NCBI GenBank assembly: GCA_019510335.1
Contig: JAEKKO010000107.1
Span: 1-41,108 of the forward strand
DNA from: Novosphingobium sp.
GTDB lineage: Bacteria > Pseudomonadota > Alphaproteobacteria > Sphingomonadales > Sphingomonadaceae
Direction: 5' to 3'
Length of the DNA: 41,108 nucleotides
A model generated the notes under the pieces. The model saw only the letters and a list, made by a program, of their open reading frames with translations. It was not told the DNA's origin and did no database searches. A program made the position numbers and the translations under genes. Each line of letters starts with the position of its first letter. The first letter of the stretch is position 1. Positions 31,495-39,070 of the stretch are shown here, piece by piece.

Positions 31495-31977
31495 TCAGCC
31501 GCCGCGCAGCGCCCGCCACCTTGCGGCGCCGCTTTCCCCATAGATGCGGGGGACGTCGCGTCCGGAATAGAACTGTCCGAAGCGCTCGGCACCCTCGGGG
31601 ATGACCACCCACGGCTGCTTGCTTTCGGTGAAGATATGGACTTCGGGCGGGCAATCGTCGGGATCGTCGAGGGTGCCGACCCGGATGAAGCTCGCCGCCT
31701 CGCCTGCGCCGCCGTAGTGGCTCCACACCGCGACCTTGCACGTCGGGCAGCGCAGGATCGCCTGGCCGCGGCCACTTTGCGATGGCGTGTCGATTCGCTC
31801 CGGCGCGCCTCCGAGCAGCTCGACTTTGGCGGACTCAATGACCGCGTTTAGCGCGAAGGCCGTGCCGGTCTCGCGCTGGCACCAACGGCAGTGGCAGCAA
31901 TGGACGACGATCGGCGCGTCGTGCAGCCGGTAGCGGACTTGCCTGCAGTCGCAGCCCCCTTCGGCGCTGATTCTCAT
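31495..31977 (-). CDS. GFA-family (glutathione-dependent formaldehyde-activating enzyme-like) protein
   Basis: GGCDCRQVRYRL; HCCHCRWCQRETGTAFALNAVI; LRCPTCKVAVWSH zinc-ligand pattern. Confidence 0.9.
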   Translation of the reverse strand: MRISAEGGCDCRQVRYRLHDAPIVVHCCHCRWCQRETGTAFALNAVIESAKVELLGGAPERIDTPSQSGRGQAILRCPTCKVAVWSHYGGAGEAASFIRVGTLDDPDDCPPEVHIFTESKQPWVVIPEGAERFGQFYSGRDVPRIYGESGAARWRALRGG

Positions 31978-32429
31978 GCGTTGGCTTCGCACAGAGCCTT
32001 GAGCTGGTCGGCGACGACGCCCCAGCCGTCCTCGAAGCCCATCGCCTTGTGCTGCTCGACCGCTGCGTCGGTCCAGTGCCGGGCGGACGCGGTGTAGCGG
32101 GTGCCTGTGCCCTCCGGGGCGATCTCGAAGATGCCAATCATGAACGGCCCTTGCGGCTGGAGGTCGGCGGTCATGGCGTCGGTGAAGGCGAAACGGCGGC
32201 CTTCGTCCCACGCCACGAACATACCCTCTTGGGGATGTTCCTCGCCGTCCGGTCCCTTCATTACCATTGCCGAGCGTCCCCCGGGGCGCCGCTCCCAAGC
32301 GGTGATCTCGGCCCGCCACGGCTTCGGACACCACCACTCGGCAGTGCGCTCGGTCAGCACCTCCCAGACTTTCTCGGGCGGCGCGGCGATGGTGCGGCTG
32401 ACGGACAGTTCACGGGTGGACTGGGTCAT
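31974..32429 (-). CDS. SRPBCC / AHSA1-like domain protein
   Basis: RELSVSRTIAAPPEKVWEVLTERTAEWWCPKPWRAEIT...GTGTRYTASARHWTDAAVEQHKAMGFEDGWG. Confidence 0.9.
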   Translation of the reverse strand: MTQSTRELSVSRTIAAPPEKVWEVLTERTAEWWCPKPWRAEITAWERRPGGRSAMVMKGPDGEEHPQEGMFVAWDEGRRFAFTDAMTADLQPQGPFMIGIFEIAPEGTGTRYTASARHWTDAAVEQHKAMGFEDGWGVVADQLKALCEANA

Positions 32430-32812
32430 CGCTTGGGCACTCCATACTGGGTAGTGATCATTTCGAGGAAGTGGCCGTCGGGATCCTCGAAATAAACGCC
32501 ACGGCCGCCGTCGTTGTGGTTGATCTCACGTTCGCGCTGGCGGGCGGGATCGGCCCAGTACCGCAAGCCGAGATCGGCGATCCGCTGCATCCCGCGATCA
32601 AACCCGGCGTCATCGACCAGGAAGGCATAATGCTGGCGAGCGATCGCGCCTTCCCTGGTCATGAAGTCGAGCGACACGCCATTGTCGAGCTCCACGACCA
32701 TGAAGTGATGGAACCGCTTGGGAGGCGGGCGCCCGAGCATGTCCGCGAGGAACTGCGCCGAGCGCTCGTTGTCGCGGCACCAGACGATCGTGTGGTTGAG
32801 CTCGGCGGACAT
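32426..32812 (-). CDS. VOC (glyoxalase-like) family protein
   Basis: LNHTIVWCRDNERSAQFLADMLGRPPPKRFHHFMVVELDNGVSLDF...GRGVYFEDPDGHFLEMITTQYG. Confidence 0.9.
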   Translation of the reverse strand: MSAELNHTIVWCRDNERSAQFLADMLGRPPPKRFHHFMVVELDNGVSLDFMTREGAIARQHYAFLVDDAGFDRGMQRIADLGLRYWADPARQREREINHNDGGRGVYFEDPDGHFLEMITTQYGVPKR

Positions 32813-32823
32813 GGCGCTCTCCC

Positions 32824-33477
32824 TCAGTCCCGGTCGGGCGCGCCCGGCGGGAAGAAATGGCGGTACGGCCGCGCCGCCTCGACGCAGCGCTTGACCGGCG
32901 GCAGGGCCAGCAGGTGCTTGCGCCAAGCGGCGAGGCGGGGGCAGTCCGCGCCAATCGGTTCGACCCAGTCGGCGTAGAACAACGCGGGCGCGGCGGCACA
33001 TTCGACGAGCGTGATCTGATCGCCCGCCGGATAGTACGCGAGCCAGCCTTCGAGCCACGCATAGCTGCGCCGCAGCCGCTGCTTGGCGGGGCCGGTGCGG
33101 GCCAGGTCAGGCGCGTCCGAACTCGCGATGTATTCCTCGACGATCGCTTGCATCGGGCTCATCACATAGTTGTCGAACACCCGATCGAGCATGCGCGCGC
33201 CGATTGCCGCATCGCGGTCGCCGGGGATGAGCGGGTGCTCACCGGCGAAGTGCGCATCGAGATATTCGATGATCGACGTCGATTCGAAAATTACGGACTC
33301 ACCGTCCTCGAGCACTGGGAACTTTGCGAGCGGCCCTCCCTGCGTGGCGACGAACTCGCCGTTCTCCGGATGATCATCGTCGACGACCCGAAACTCGAAC
33401 GGCTTGTCATTGGCGTAAAGCGCGATCAGCGCCTTCCAGGTGTAGGACGAGAAGGGGTGACCGTAGAGCGCAAGCAT
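32824..33477 (-). CDS. Glutathione S-transferase family protein
   Basis: LALYGHPFSSYTWKALIALYANDKPFEFRVV; FPVLEDGESVIFESTSIIEYLD. Confidence 0.9.
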   Translation of the reverse strand: MLALYGHPFSSYTWKALIALYANDKPFEFRVVDDDHPENGEFVATQGGPLAKFPVLEDGESVIFESTSIIEYLDAHFAGEHPLIPGDRDAAIGARMLDRVFDNYVMSPMQAIVEEYIASSDAPDLARTGPAKQRLRRSYAWLEGWLAYYPAGDQITLVECAAAPALFYADWVEPIGADCPRLAAWRKHLLALPPVKRCVEAARPYRHFFPPGAPDRD

Positions 33478-33496
33478 CCGAGAAAACTCCTTCGCG

Positions 33497-34228
33497 TCAG
33501 TAGTTTACCTTGGGGAAGAAGTCCATCCCGCGCCCTTCCGGAGTAGTGTCGAGCAGGCCCCAGACAGGATCGATGAAGTCGAGCCCGCGGTGGTTCTGCC
33601 CGGGGTCTTCCGGGGCGAAGACAAGCTCGCTGCCCCAGAAGTGGCGGATCGTCTCGCCGTCACGCACGAACACGTTGAGCATCGGCTCATCCGACACTTT
33701 GCTTTCGGGATACCCGCGCTCGGCGCGCATCGCCGGAGTCAACGCGGCGGTGTCGCCGTAGTAACGTGCGTCGTAGTCGTTGCCGGCGGTCGACAGCAGC
33801 TGGAGGTGCTGCCAGCCGCGGGCTTGGGCCCAAGCGGCGAGGCGGGCGATCGGCGACTTGGCGACGGCATAAAGCGCCGCCTTCTGCGGCACGTGCCGCG
33901 CCGCGCCGTCGACACAGTCGAGCAAGTGCGTGCAGCCGGGGCAGGGCGAGTCGCGTTCCGGGCCGAACATGTAGCTGTAGAGGAGCAGCGTGGAGTGCTC
34001 GCCGAATAGTTCCGACAGCTTCACCCGCTCCGGCCGGAAATTCGCGCCGATCCGCTCGAACACCAAGTCCTCGGGCAGTTCGCCGCCGGGCGGCAACGCC
34101 CTGCGCATGGCGGCGACTGCTTCGGTCTGTCGGCGCAGCGCGACCTCGGCATCGAGCAGCGCGTTGCGCGCCTTGCGATAATCGGGGCTTTCGTTCGGGA
34201 AAGCCATTCGGGCGAATTCTTCGGCCAT
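33497..34228 (-). CDS. DUF899 (thioredoxin-like) family protein
   Basis: YRKARNALLDAEVALRRQTEAVAAMRRALPPGG; LLLYSYMFGPERDSPCPGCTHLLD; DFIDPVWGLLDTTPEGRG. Confidence 0.9.
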   Translation of the reverse strand: MAEEFARMAFPNESPDYRKARNALLDAEVALRRQTEAVAAMRRALPPGGELPEDLVFERIGANFRPERVKLSELFGEHSTLLLYSYMFGPERDSPCPGCTHLLDCVDGAARHVPQKAALYAVAKSPIARLAAWAQARGWQHLQLLSTAGNDYDARYYGDTAALTPAMRAERGYPESKVSDEPMLNVFVRDGETIRHFWGSELVFAPEDPGQNHRGLDFIDPVWGLLDTTPEGRGMDFFPKVNY

Positions 34229-34266
34229 GGCTCAGGTTTCCGCGTGTTTTCCCGGGAGCGCGAGCA

Positions 34267-34929
34267 TCACCAGGTTCCCGCTGCGATCTTGCGGCGCCGC
34301 TCGAGTTCCCGGTCGCTCGGCTCGTCCGCGCCGAACGATCCGGTTTGCACCTGCCCGGCGGGCTCGTAGCTGGCGATCACGACGCCTTTGGCGGTTACCG
34401 CGTGCTCGACCAGCCGCAGCGCGCGAGGAGGCGTGCCGTCGCCGAAGAGGCGCTTGCCGGAGCCGAGCAGGAGCGGACCGATCATCAGGGTCAGCCGGTC
34501 GATCAGGCCGCGGGCGAGGAGCTGCGGATAGAGCGTGGAGCTTCCCTGAATGAGCAGGTCGGGACCGTCGCCATTCTTGAGCGCAGCAACGGCGTCAAGA
34601 TTGGCGAGCCGATGACTCCCGCCCCATTCAAGCGGCGCGTCCGAATTCGTCAGCACGTACTTGTCGGTGCGGTTGAACGCCTCCGCGATCGGATTGTCCG
34701 AGGGCATGAAAGGCCAATAGGCGGCGAAGATGTCGTAAGTGCGCCTCCCAAGGAGCAGGGCGAACGGCTTTTCAAACCACGATCCGATCATGCCGTCGGA
34801 TTGCTCGTCGTGCTGCGGGACCCACCAGCCGCCATGGTCAAAGCCATCCCGCGTATCCTCCTGTGTGCCGCCGGGCGCCTGCATCACGCCGTCGAGCGAG
34901 ACGAACGCCGCTCCGAGAATCTTACGCAT
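34267..34929 (-). CDS. Dihydrofolate-reductase-like (RibD C-terminal) family protein
   Basis: RKILGAAFVSLDGVMQAPGGTQEDTRDGFDHGGW; LLLGRRTYDIFAAYWP; LLIQGSSTLYPQLLARGLIDRLTLMIGPLLLGSGKRLF. Confidence 0.9.
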   Translation of the reverse strand: MRKILGAAFVSLDGVMQAPGGTQEDTRDGFDHGGWWVPQHDEQSDGMIGSWFEKPFALLLGRRTYDIFAAYWPFMPSDNPIAEAFNRTDKYVLTNSDAPLEWGGSHRLANLDAVAALKNGDGPDLLIQGSSTLYPQLLARGLIDRLTLMIGPLLLGSGKRLFGDGTPPRALRLVEHAVTAKGVVIASYEPAGQVQTGSFGADEPSDRELERRRKIAAGTW

Positions 34930-35416
34930 CGGCTGATGTGCCTGCCACCGCCGCCTCGATAGCGGCGACGTCGATCTTCTTCATCGTCATCATCGCCTCG
35001 AACGCGCGCTTGCGTGCTGGCTCGTCGGGGCTGCTGATTGCCGCGCTCAGAACGCGCGGGGTGATCTGCCATGACACGCCCCACTTGTCCTTGCACCAGC
35101 CGCACTGGCTCTCCTGGCCGCCGTTCCCCACGATCGCGTTCCACAAGCGATCGGTCTCTGCCTGGTCATCGGTGGCAACCTGGAATGAAAAGGCTTCGGT
35201 TTGTGGGAACGCGGGCCCCCCATTGAGGCCGATGCACGGGATACCCATGATGGTGAACTCGACAGTAAGGACATTGCCTTGCTTGCCGTCCGGGTAGTCG
35301 CCCGGGGCACGGTGGACTCCCGTGACCTCGGTGTCGGCGAACGTCGCGGCGTAGAACCGCGCCGCCTCCTCCGCAGTGCCGTCGAACCACAGGCAGACGA
35401 GAGCTTTGCCGGTCAT
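34922..35416 (-). CDS. VOC/PhnB-like (3-demethylubiquinone-9 methyltransferase domain) protein
   Basis: CLWFDGTAEEAARFYAATFADTEVTGV; CIGLNGGPAFPQTEAFSFQVATDDQAETDRLWNAIVGNGGQESQCGWCKDKWGVSWQITP. Confidence 0.9.
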   Translation of the reverse strand: MTGKALVCLWFDGTAEEAARFYAATFADTEVTGVHRAPGDYPDGKQGNVLTVEFTIMGIPCIGLNGGPAFPQTEAFSFQVATDDQAETDRLWNAIVGNGGQESQCGWCKDKWGVSWQITPRVLSAAISSPDEPARKRAFEAMMTMKKIDVAAIEAAVAGTSADA

Positions 35417-36039
35417 TTGCGCCTCTCCGCGATCAGGGCATTATCGACCGCTTTGGCTGCCTTGTAGGCGTCGCGCTGCTGGAGACGCTCGGCATAAGCG
35501 GCGAAGGCGCGGTTGGGCGGCATCGTGCCGAAGGTGAGTCCCCAGTCGACCTGACTGCCGACATAGACATCGGCCATGGTGAAGCGCTCCCCGCACACCC
35601 ATTCGCGGTCGGACATCCAGCTTTCGAGTGCACCGAGCGCCCGTTCGACGCTGCCGAAACCGACCATTGGCTCCTGCTCGGGCGTGGGCTCTATCTTGAG
35701 CGCCTTGCAGGTGGTCATCTGCTCAATCGGCCCGGCCGCGAAGAACATCCAGCGGTAGTAGTCGGCCCGCTCGGTTTCGCGTGGCGCCAGTTCGGCGAGC
35801 GGGTGCTCGTCGGCGAGGTAGGCGCAGATCGCCGCCGCTTCGGAAATCACCCGGTCGCCGCTGAGGGCGTGATGGATCACCGTTGGCACTTTGCCCATCG
35901 GGTTGGCGGCAAGGAAGTCGGCCGGCTTGTTGCCCCAGTCGACCAGCACCTGATCGTACTCGGCGCCGGCCTCGTGGAGCGCCCACCGCGCGATCTGGCC
36001 GCGCGACATCGGATTGGTGAAGAACGTGTACTCGGCCAT
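35413..36039 (-). CDS. Glutathione S-transferase family protein
   Basis: TFFTNPMSRGQIARWALHEAGAEYDQVLVDW; NPMGKVPTVIHHALSGDRVISEAAAICAYLAD. Confidence 0.9.
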   Translation of the reverse strand: MAEYTFFTNPMSRGQIARWALHEAGAEYDQVLVDWGNKPADFLAANPMGKVPTVIHHALSGDRVISEAAAICAYLADEHPLAELAPRETERADYYRWMFFAAGPIEQMTTCKALKIEPTPEQEPMVGFGSVERALGALESWMSDREWVCGERFTMADVYVGSQVDWGLTFGTMPPNRAFAAYAERLQQRDAYKAAKAVDNALIAERRK

Positions 36040-36042
36040 CGC

Positions 36043-36825
36043 TCAACCCTTCCGCGCGCCGACAAGGCAGAAGAACGCGCCTTGCGGATCCGCGCCCTGG
36101 ATGATCCAGTCGCCGGTCGGGACCTGCATCGGCCCGGTCATCACACGGCCGCGGCCCGATTCGACCGCACTCTGTGCGCGGTCGATGTCGTCGACGCGGA
36201 AGTAGTAGTTCCAGAGCGAGGGCCGCCCGCCCTGGGCAGTCGTCACTGCGCCCAGCCGCGCCCCGTCGTGGTCGATGAAGCAGTAGTCGCCCATCTCCCC
36301 CATCGGCATCTTGTCGGTCGAGCTCATCCCGAAATGGCGCGCATAGAACCGCAGGGCGCCCGCCTGGTCGGTGGTGACCAGCTCGTTCCAACCGCAATGG
36401 CCGACGCTGTCCGGAGAGAATGCCCGGCTCTGCGCGTCGGGCTGGTCCGGTGGCGGGATCGGAGTCATCACGTAAAACGGTGCCCCTTGCGGATCGGTGA
36501 CCATCGCCATCCGCCCGACGTTGGCCATGTCCATCGCCGGCATCCGCACCTGCCCGCCTTCGGCAGTGATCGAGGCGACGGTCGCATCGACATCGCCGAC
36601 GTGGAGGTAGCCGAGCCAGACGGGGCGGGCGCCGTGCTGCTCCATCTCATGCGTGAGCTGCATCATGCCGCCGACGAAATCTCCGTCCGGGGCTTTGAGG
36701 TGGTAATAGCCCTCGTTGCCGGGCCCCCCGATCGACCAGCCGACGACCTCTTCATAGAAGGCCTTCGCTGCTTCCGCGTCGGCTGTCAGAAGCTCGTACC
36801 AGATGAAGCGTCCGTGGTTCGTCAT
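36043..36825 (-). CDS. Two-domain VOC family protein
   Basis: GRFIWYELLTADAEAAKAFYEEVVGW...HCGWNELVTTDQAGALRFYARHFGM; two VOC modules. Confidence 0.9.
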   Translation of the reverse strand: MTNHGRFIWYELLTADAEAAKAFYEEVVGWSIGGPGNEGYYHLKAPDGDFVGGMMQLTHEMEQHGARPVWLGYLHVGDVDATVASITAEGGQVRMPAMDMANVGRMAMVTDPQGAPFYVMTPIPPPDQPDAQSRAFSPDSVGHCGWNELVTTDQAGALRFYARHFGMSSTDKMPMGEMGDYCFIDHDGARLGAVTTAQGGRPSLWNYYFRVDDIDRAQSAVESGRGRVMTGPMQVPTGDWIIQGADPQGAFFCLVGARKG

Positions 36826-36827
36826 GG

Positions 36828-37199
36828 TCACTCTCCCAAGGTCACGATCGGCACGAAGCCGCCGAAGATCATCCGCTTGCCGTCGAACGGCATCGGGGTC
36901 TGCTGGGGATCGAAGCGCGGATCGGTCTTCATCATCTCCTCCATCTTCTGATGGACGGCATTGCGGGTTTCCTTGTCCGGCCACTCGACCCAGCTGAAGG
37001 CGATCGTCTCATCCTCCTTCGCCTCTACGGCGCGCCGGAAGTCGGTGACTTTTCCGTCAGGCACGTCGTCGCCCCAGCATTCGAGGATGCGGCGTGCGCC
37101 GTGGTCGATCAGCAGGGAGTCGAAGATTTTGGCATGCTCGACGAATTGGTCTCGATTCGCGGTCGGCACCGGAATGACGAAGCCGTCTACGTAGCTCAT
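36828..37199 (-). CDS. DUF1428-domain protein
   Basis: MSYVDGFVIPVPTANRDQFVEHAKIFDSLLIDHGARRILECWGDDVPDGKVTDFRRAVEAKEDETIAFSWVEWPDKETRNA. Confidence 0.92.
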   Translation of the reverse strand: MSYVDGFVIPVPTANRDQFVEHAKIFDSLLIDHGARRILECWGDDVPDGKVTDFRRAVEAKEDETIAFSWVEWPDKETRNAVHQKMEEMMKTDPRFDPQQTPMPFDGKRMIFGGFVPIVTLGE

Positions 37200-37864
37200 G
37201 CGGGTTCTCCTTGCTTGAGGCCGGCGATCTGATCGGCGAGCGCCTGGCTAAATGCGGGGCGCGCTTCGCCGCGCGCCTGGTAAGCCGCGACGGCGGGGAA
37301 GCCCGCAACGATCTCCGTGTGGCGCAAGTTGCGCAGCACCGTGACCATGGCGATGTCGGCGATGGTGAAGCGGCCGGCTAGCCAGTCCTTGTCGCCGAGC
37401 GCATCGGCGAGGCGGGCGAGGCGCTGCTCGGCAAGGGCAACGGCGCTCGGCCGCGCGTCCGCCGCCCACGGCTTGCCGACGTAGAAAATGTCGAGCGTGA
37501 CGATCTGCATCAGCATCGGCTCGACGCTGTTGAGCGCCGCAATCAGCCAGGCTGTCGTATCCCAACGCCGCTGCCCGGCAGCCGGCAGCAGCCGCTCGTC
37601 CTGCTCGCCCAGATAGAGCAGGATTGCCCCGCTCTCGAACAGCCGGACCTTGCCGTCGGCGAATGCCGGTACTTGCCCGAACGGCTGCCACTGCAGATAT
37701 TCGTCGGCGCGTGGCTTCATCGCATCGTACAACTCGGTCCGGTATGGCCGCCCGATCTCCTCAAGCGCCCAGCGGATGCGGATGTCGCGGACGATGCCGT
37801 GGGCGAACTCGGGGGTGTTGCGGAAGCCGGTGACGACGGTTTCGGCGGCGGGGTCGAGCGGCAT
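37196..37864 (-). CDS. Glutathione S-transferase family protein
   Basis: IRIRWALEEIGRPYRTELYDAM; WQPFGQVPAFADGKVRLFESGAILLYLGE; FTIADIAMVTVLRNL. Confidence 0.9.
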   Translation of the reverse strand: MPLDPAAETVVTGFRNTPEFAHGIVRDIRIRWALEEIGRPYRTELYDAMKPRADEYLQWQPFGQVPAFADGKVRLFESGAILLYLGEQDERLLPAAGQRRWDTTAWLIAALNSVEPMLMQIVTLDIFYVGKPWAADARPSAVALAEQRLARLADALGDKDWLAGRFTIADIAMVTVLRNLRHTEIVAGFPAVAAYQARGEARPAFSQALADQIAGLKQGEPA

Positions 37865-37880
37865 TGGTCAGCCTTCCAGC

Positions 37881-38312
37881 TTAAGCAGTGGCTTCGGAAA
37901 CGTGCGCCTCACCTTCGGCGACTGCCGGGTCCATCCACATCGGCTCCCACACGTGCCCGTCCGGGTCGGCGAAGCTTCGGCTCATCATGAAGCCGTGGTC
38001 CTGGGCCGGGTTGATTTCGGCCGTGCCGCCGTTCGCGCCGGCGGCGTCGGCCATCCGGTTGACCTCGTCACGGCTGTCGCAGGCGATGCACAGCATGACC
38101 TCGCTCGCGCCGACTGCCGGGATCGGCCGCTCGGTAAAGCTGCGCCACTTGGGATGGGTCAGCAGCATCACGAAGATGGCTTCCGACCAGACCATGCAGG
38201 CCGCAGTTTCGTCAGAGAAGCGCGGTTCGTTGGTGAAGCCGATCGCTTCGTAGAAGGCCCTGGCGCGGGGCAGGTCGGCGACCGGCAAGTTGACGAAAAT
38301 CATCTTCGGCAT
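37881..38312 (-). CDS. VOC family protein
   Basis: KMIFVNLPVADLPRARAFYEAIGFTNEPRFSDETAACMVWSEAIFVMLLT...DHGFMMSRSFADPDGHVWEPMWMDP. Confidence 0.92.
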   Translation of the reverse strand: MPKMIFVNLPVADLPRARAFYEAIGFTNEPRFSDETAACMVWSEAIFVMLLTHPKWRSFTERPIPAVGASEVMLCIACDSRDEVNRMADAAGANGGTAEINPAQDHGFMMSRSFADPDGHVWEPMWMDPAVAEGEAHVSEATA

Positions 38313-38338
38313 GGCGTCTCTCCCTCGCCTGGCGAATC

Positions 38339-38403
38339 ACTGTTGCATTTTGCTGCCATTCTGAGTTACAAAAAGCAACTGTGGAGTCACGAAAAGAAAC
38401 TGA
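38339..38403. promoter_or_regulatory. Candidate HxlR operator array: two 20-nt direct repeats plus a partial inverted copy
   Basis: gagttacaaaaagcaactgt (38363-38382) and gagtcacgaaaagaaactga (38384-38403), 16/20 identical; inverted gcaaaatgcaacagt (38339-38353). Confidence 0.5.
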
Positions 38404-39070
38404 AACGCCCCGCAGGCACGGTAAGTGGTATAACGATGCCTGCGGCACCGCATTTGCGCTCGAATTGATCGGGGAGCGCTGGTCGCTGCTGATCGTGCGT
38501 GAGCTGATGTTCGGTGGGCGGCGCTTTTCGGACTTGCGGGCGGCGCTCCCCGGCATCAGCGCCAAAGTGCTGGCCGAGCGTCTCGACGGCCTCGAGCAGG
38601 CCGGCATCGTCCAGCGCCGCCGGCTGCCGCCGCCCGCCGCCTCGCAAATCTATGAGCTGACCCCGTGGGGCTACGATGCGGAGGAGGCGATTCAGGCGCT
38701 CGGCCGCTGGGCTGCCGCCTCGGCAGACCACGATCCGACACTGCCGCTCTCGGCGGCGTCGCTGATGGTGAGCTTTCGGACGATGTTCGACCCTAAGCGG
38801 GCGAAGGCGCTCGCCTGCACGGCGACGATTTGGGTCGGCGAAGAGAGCTTCCGTCTGAGGGTTGCCAAGGGGCACCTGAGCATCCGCCGCGGTGAGGCCA
38901 AGGCTCCCGACTTCACCATCGCCGCGCCGGTCGCCGCGCCGATCGCGGCGCTGGTCTACGTCAAGGTGCCGGCCGCCGAACTTGCGGCAGCCGGGCTCTC
39001 GCTCGATGGCGACCTCGCGGTCGCGGCGCGGTTCGTCGACTTGTTTCATCTCCCCGCCAGAGCCGCCTAG
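38381..39070 (+). CDS. HxlR-family winged-helix regulator with C-terminal (possibly SCP2-like) extension
   Basis: ACGTAFALELIGERWSLLIVRELMFGGRRFSDLRAALPGISAKVLAERLDGLEQAGIVQRRRLPPPAASQIYELTPWG, then ~110 extra residues. Confidence 0.88.
   Translation: MESRKETETPRRHGKWYNDACGTAFALELIGERWSLLIVRELMFGGRRFSDLRAALPGISAKVLAERLDGLEQAGIVQRRRLPPPAASQIYELTPWGYDAEEAIQALGRWAAASADHDPTLPLSAASLMVSFRTMFDPKRAKALACTATIWVGEESFRLRVAKGHLSIRRGEAKAPDFTIAAPVAAPIAALVYVKVPAAELAAAGLSLDGDLAVAARFVDLFHLPARAA

Follow-up and report, generated by a model that had tools for sequence, protein, structure and literature searches.

A conserved array of two near-palindromes around the start codon of hxlR in Novosphingobium sp. and its orthologous loci

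The window (the whole stretch of DNA analysed, 41,108 nucleotides) contained the regulator gene hxlR, a divergent detoxification-type operon, and an array of two near-palindromes, op1 and op2, placed on either side of the hxlR start codon. The features of this locus were as follows:
31495..38312, minus strand: divergent detoxification-type operon (assigned by Pfam; ORFs closely spaced or overlapping, and presumably co-transcribed).
37881..38312, minus strand: VOC/glyoxalase-like protein gene, the first gene of the divergent operon (Pfam Glyoxalase, 8e-06).
38334..38338, no strand assigned: GAATC, a CcrM-type GANTC site.
38343..38348, plus strand: TTGCAT, probable −35 of hxlR.
38350..38355, minus strand: CAGCAA, possible −10 of the divergent operon, a tentative assignment.
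38364..38380, plus strand: op1 AGTTACAAAAAGCAACT, a near-palindrome with 5/6 symmetric half-site pairs, abutting the start codon.
38367–38372, plus strand: TACAAA, putative −10 of hxlR, covered by op1.
38381..38383, plus strand: GTG start codon of hxlR, flanked by op1 and op2.
38381..39070, plus strand: hxlR (229 aa), encoding an HxlR/DUF24 winged-helix regulator with a C-terminal SCP2-like domain and an invariant Cys21.
38385..38401, plus strand: op2 AGTCACGAAAAGAAACT, the second copy, spanning hxlR codons 2–7.

The hxlR product harbored an HxlR winged-helix domain (Pfam PF01638, 3e-22, above the cut-off); its best solved relative was YodB (1e-14), and HxlR, HypR, and QsrR were also found. 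The AlphaFold model (pLDDT 84) gave Foldseek matches to YodB, HypR, HxlR, alkylsulfatases, and UbiJ-SCP2, and no significant match in the viral fold library. Cys21 was invariant in 18 aligned orthologs (alignment A1), and at least 100 of 109 orthologs had a Cys where expected; the product thereby appeared to share the family trait of an N-terminal candidate redox-active Cys located before the winged helix. The Cys-x-Lys crosslink pair of the B. subtilis HxlR formaldehyde mechanism (Cys11, Lys13) was absent, the window having Cys21-Gly22-Thr23 and the orthologs no Lys. The C-terminal half (window 38732–39067) was SCP2-like, comparable to UbiJ and to the alkylsulfatase C-terminus; its Pfam matches to SCP2 and to the alkylsulfatase C-terminal domain were sub-threshold, and it is possibly a hydrophobic-ligand domain fused to a DNA-binding domain of thiol-sensor type.

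The array was composed of two 20-nt repeats, gagttacaaaaagcaactgt (38363–38382) and gagtcacgaaaagaaactga (38384–38403), which were 16/20 identical at an offset of 21 bp. These properties, claimed by the initial annotation, were borne out both by the letters and by their uniqueness, since 16/20 identity at offsets 18–24 was not reached by any further pair of 20-mers in the window (2 of 287,469 positions, both being the array itself). Its description of them as direct repeats stood as to the two copies and the fixed offset, but the copies were better described as two tandem near-palindromes with a 17-bp core each. The op2 of the window was among the weaker copies, with AGTCACG in place of AGTTACA. 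A second GANTC (GAGTC) was present at 38384–38388, within op2, where nearly all relatives had AAGTTA. In the window's genome, GTTRC-N5-GYAAC occurred at five places only, and the A-tract centre was found only at the array.

Named genomes, together with 201 genomes of the family and 337 of the class, supplied the HxlR relatives, whose upstream DNA was fetched; 109 loci were left after duplicate removal, with an HxlR protein identity of 39–73%. Conservation at orthologous promoters, a test named beforehand, was found in 107 of these 109 loci, all of which carried op1 (AGTTAYNAAAAGCAACY), the start codon, and op2 (AGTTACAAAAAGAAACY) in this order and with an op1–op2 offset of exactly 21 bp. The two loci without the array, L112 and L113, encoded the most diverged proteins (39–40% identity). 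Across the 107 loci, mean pairwise identity was 0.76 in the array versus 0.30 in the flank, and mean information per column was 1.36 bits in the array versus 0.10–0.12 in the flanks; this difference indicated that selection acts on the array, which appeared to be kept for that reason and not through recent common descent. Both op1 and op2 were symmetric at four or more of six pairs in about 80% of the loci, compared with 5% of background 17-mers, and they were consistent with the HxlR/DUF24 operator form, namely, a short dimer-sized palindrome near the own or a neighbouring promoter. Compensatory covariation from arm to arm was rejected, because symmetry hardly exceeded the independent-column expectation and rested on the consensus. 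One locus, L085 (G089:C2:183246-183291), contained three in-frame tandem 21-bp units, of which the third was partial, and its regulator started with MKLQKETMKLQ.

The operator-like array was conserved together with its gene partners. The divergent operon of the window encoded VOC, GST, DUF1428, double VOC, GST, PhnB/3-dmu-like, RibD_C, DUF899, GST, VOC, AHSA1, and GFA products; the first divergent gene came from this same pool in 98 of 109 loci (tblastn), with the array unchanged, and was VOC1 in 64, DUF1428 in 12, GST in 12, DUF899 in 4, and others in the remainder.

The position of op2 within codons 2–7 raised the question of what the conserved letters serve. GTG 38381, proposed earlier as the hxlR start, was well supported, being the first start codon in the HxlR frame and lying at a position used by 93 orthologs (82 with ATG and 11 with GTG). 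In these 93 orthologs, (i) codon 3 was TTA in 80, while TTA made up 1.0% of leucine codons elsewhere in the same genes (66% G+C); (ii) codons 2 and 4 varied at the first base (K/E/Q and Q/E/P/L/K, respectively) and were nearly fixed at the last base, the reverse of coding constraint; and (iii) codon positions 1, 2, and 3 within op2 held 1.42, 1.41, and 1.32 bits, respectively, compared with 0.67 bits at third positions in the gene body. Moreover, L019, L081, L098, L109, and L110 still had op2 although all their in-frame ATG/GTG/TTG/CTG codons lay downstream of it, and the non-coding op2 of L081 and L098 was a near-perfect to perfect palindrome, GTTATTATTTATAAC. Because op2 is kept where it is non-coding, these alignments exclude a purely protein-coding reason and argue that op2 is an intragenic DNA element.

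The same observations bore on the explanation that no operator is present, op1 being a core promoter only and op2 an A-rich coding start that aids translation without a Shine-Dalgarno sequence. The early codons were indeed A-rich, and hxlR had no Shine-Dalgarno sequence; this explanation was nevertheless considered highly improbable, given the retention of non-coding op2, the specific palindromic ends AGTTA/AAC with the exact 21-bp offset, and codons 2 and 4 being fixed at the third and variable at the first position.

The array was confined to one gene. A composite pattern (op1, the start codon, and the start of op2; at most one mismatch) gave 58 matches in 57 of 201 genomes, all of them at hxlR ortholog starts as determined by coordinate comparison with the ortholog list, and the reversed control pattern gave one match in the 201 genomes. 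The op1 core GTTAYNAAAAGCAAC gave 35 matches in the same genomes, 34 of them at hxlR and the 35th within an unrelated 843-codon frame; a wider regulon was rejected on this count of exact matches. Since the site travels with one regulator gene only, the array was best read as the operator of that regulator, as would be expected for a local autoregulator. That a different regulator binds these sites and happens to control hxlR was judged very unlikely, because across 201 genomes the array never occurred apart from hxlR, and because the conserved neighbourhood of the hxlR loci showed no further regulator gene.

Promoter elements were placed around the array by comparison of the orthologs. In 95 of 107 orthologs, a TTG stood at position −20 or −21 relative to op1; the −10 (TACNAA) would then fall within op1, and transcription would begin at the start codon or right beside it. 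A Shine-Dalgarno sequence (duplex energy ≤ −4 kcal/mol) was detected in 3% of hxlR genes versus 66% of divergent VOC genes; together with the predicted transcript start, this suggested that hxlR mRNA is probably leaderless. TG at −10/−9 from op1 (window 38354–38355) was kept in 87 of 107 loci amid variable DNA, and it may, tentatively, belong to the divergent promoter's −10, which would read CANNAA on the minus strand with a 17-bp distance to the TTGCTT of op1. The proposed −10 boxes of both promoters were without the usual last T, and a consensus promoter scan gave no match, so the map of both promoters is a provisional one. The third, inverted copy noted by the initial annotation at 38339–38353 was present as letters, with four mismatches to the 15-bp op1 core, but it was not conserved and was rejected as part of the operator, nearly all orthologs having 5–8 mismatches at best in that region; the conserved items there were the TTG of the probable −35, which the copy overlaps, and GANTC just upstream.

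GANTC is the methylation site of CcrM. Of the 107 loci, 99 had a GANTC in the −60 to −15 interval, compared with 0.06 expected per locus; it was always preceded by C, its middle base was A in 54, C in 38, T in 5, and G in 2, and it usually lay 4–7 bp upstream of the TTG. A CcrM-type RAMA protein was encoded in the window's own genome; GcrA was present in 31 of 32 good relatives and was not found in the window's own genome, which was 81% complete. With its conserved GANTC, the hxlR promoter region would resemble promoters of the CcrM/GcrA type. In Caulobacter, a GANTC close to a promoter accompanies cell-cycle-timed transcription, and YGAKTCK-type sites are the proposed targets of GcrA (PMC4287350; PMC7987155).

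With its position unchanged in 107 of 109 related gene copies, the array is very probably the regulator's switch for itself and for the neighbouring detoxification genes, one half of it lying within the first seven codons of hxlR. Sequence comparison supported the array, its fixed geometry, its constraint at the DNA level, its restriction to the locus, and its gene partners; the binding partner, the sign of regulation, the leaderless start, and the inducer are what we infer from it. The reading we favour, and consider likely, is a dedicated HxlR operator through which the regulator represses itself and controls the divergent GST/VOC/DUF899 operon. It agrees with the proposal of the initial annotation that the bound regulator would block its own gene while also sitting at the operon promoter. 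Two HxlR dimers, one on each 17-bp near-palindrome, would sit on the same DNA face, two helical turns apart; op1 would cover the hxlR −10 region plus the −35 side of the divergent operon, and op2 the first codons, such that the bound regulator would block its own, probably leaderless, transcript and repress the divergent operon. Release might follow when an electrophile or oxidant modifies Cys21, or when the SCP2-like domain holds a hydrophobic ligand.

Regulation of the divergent operon could also be positive in sign, as B. subtilis HxlR is an activator whose DNA binding is activated by formaldehyde (PMC7835342). HxlR would then bind the array, repress itself only, and switch the divergent operon on, in the manner of B. 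subtilis HxlR at hxlAB; this alternative was kept because of that precedent and the weakly defined promoter map, the divergent promoter being without a good −35/−10, and tandem sites upstream of an operon would suit an activator. However, the distance of about 47–72 bp from op1 to the start of the divergent VOC gene (orthologs with long flanks) leaves little room for a promoter clear of op1, and Lys13 of B. subtilis HxlR, which is required for the formaldehyde crosslink, is absent from the window's protein (Cys21-Gly-Thr). Activation of the operon was thus regarded as rather unlikely, and repression through op1 and op2 remained the preferred reading.

On a broader and doubtful proposal, the locus would represent an apparently undescribed, widespread Sphingomonad-type unit, in which a detoxification operon and an HxlR sensor of two domains (thiol plus lipid-like ligand) are served by a single operator, one half being promoter and the other protein code, and in which the methylation site couples the switch to the replication cycle via CcrM/GcrA. 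The search of the open-access literature found no description of the operator, of HxlR-SCP2 proteins, or of this common HxlR subfamily, for which an operator sequence with more than 100 natural variants is now provided. The locus also offers a clear example of selection on a regulatory site that lies within coding sequence (codons 2–7), visible as the forced rare TTA, and the conserved GANTC points to a possible link between DNA methylation and detoxification.

Three known systems were compared with the hxlR locus. The MarR/DUF24 (HxlR) thiol sensors YodB, HypR, QsrR, and HxlR have in common with it the winged helix, the conserved N-terminal Cys, dimer-sized palindromic sites, and adjacent detoxification genes; the window's regulator differs in its extra SCP2-like C-terminal domain and its other operator sequence, and the second operator here lies inside the opening codons of the regulator gene itself. 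B. subtilis HxlR acts at hxlAB through two tandem 25-bp sites, BRH1 and BRH2; it belongs to the same family and likewise has two tandem sites at one promoter, but it is an activator on hxlAB, its own start codon is not straddled, and its Lys13 crosslink residue has no counterpart in the window's protein. The lambda cI gene expressed from PRM is a leaderless autoregulated repressor gene, and the likeness consists in an operator at the promoter of a regulator mRNA that is leaderless (probably so for hxlR), whereas at hxlR one of the operator copies is protein-coding, a 21-bp unit of 7 codons that stays in frame in about 100 loci.
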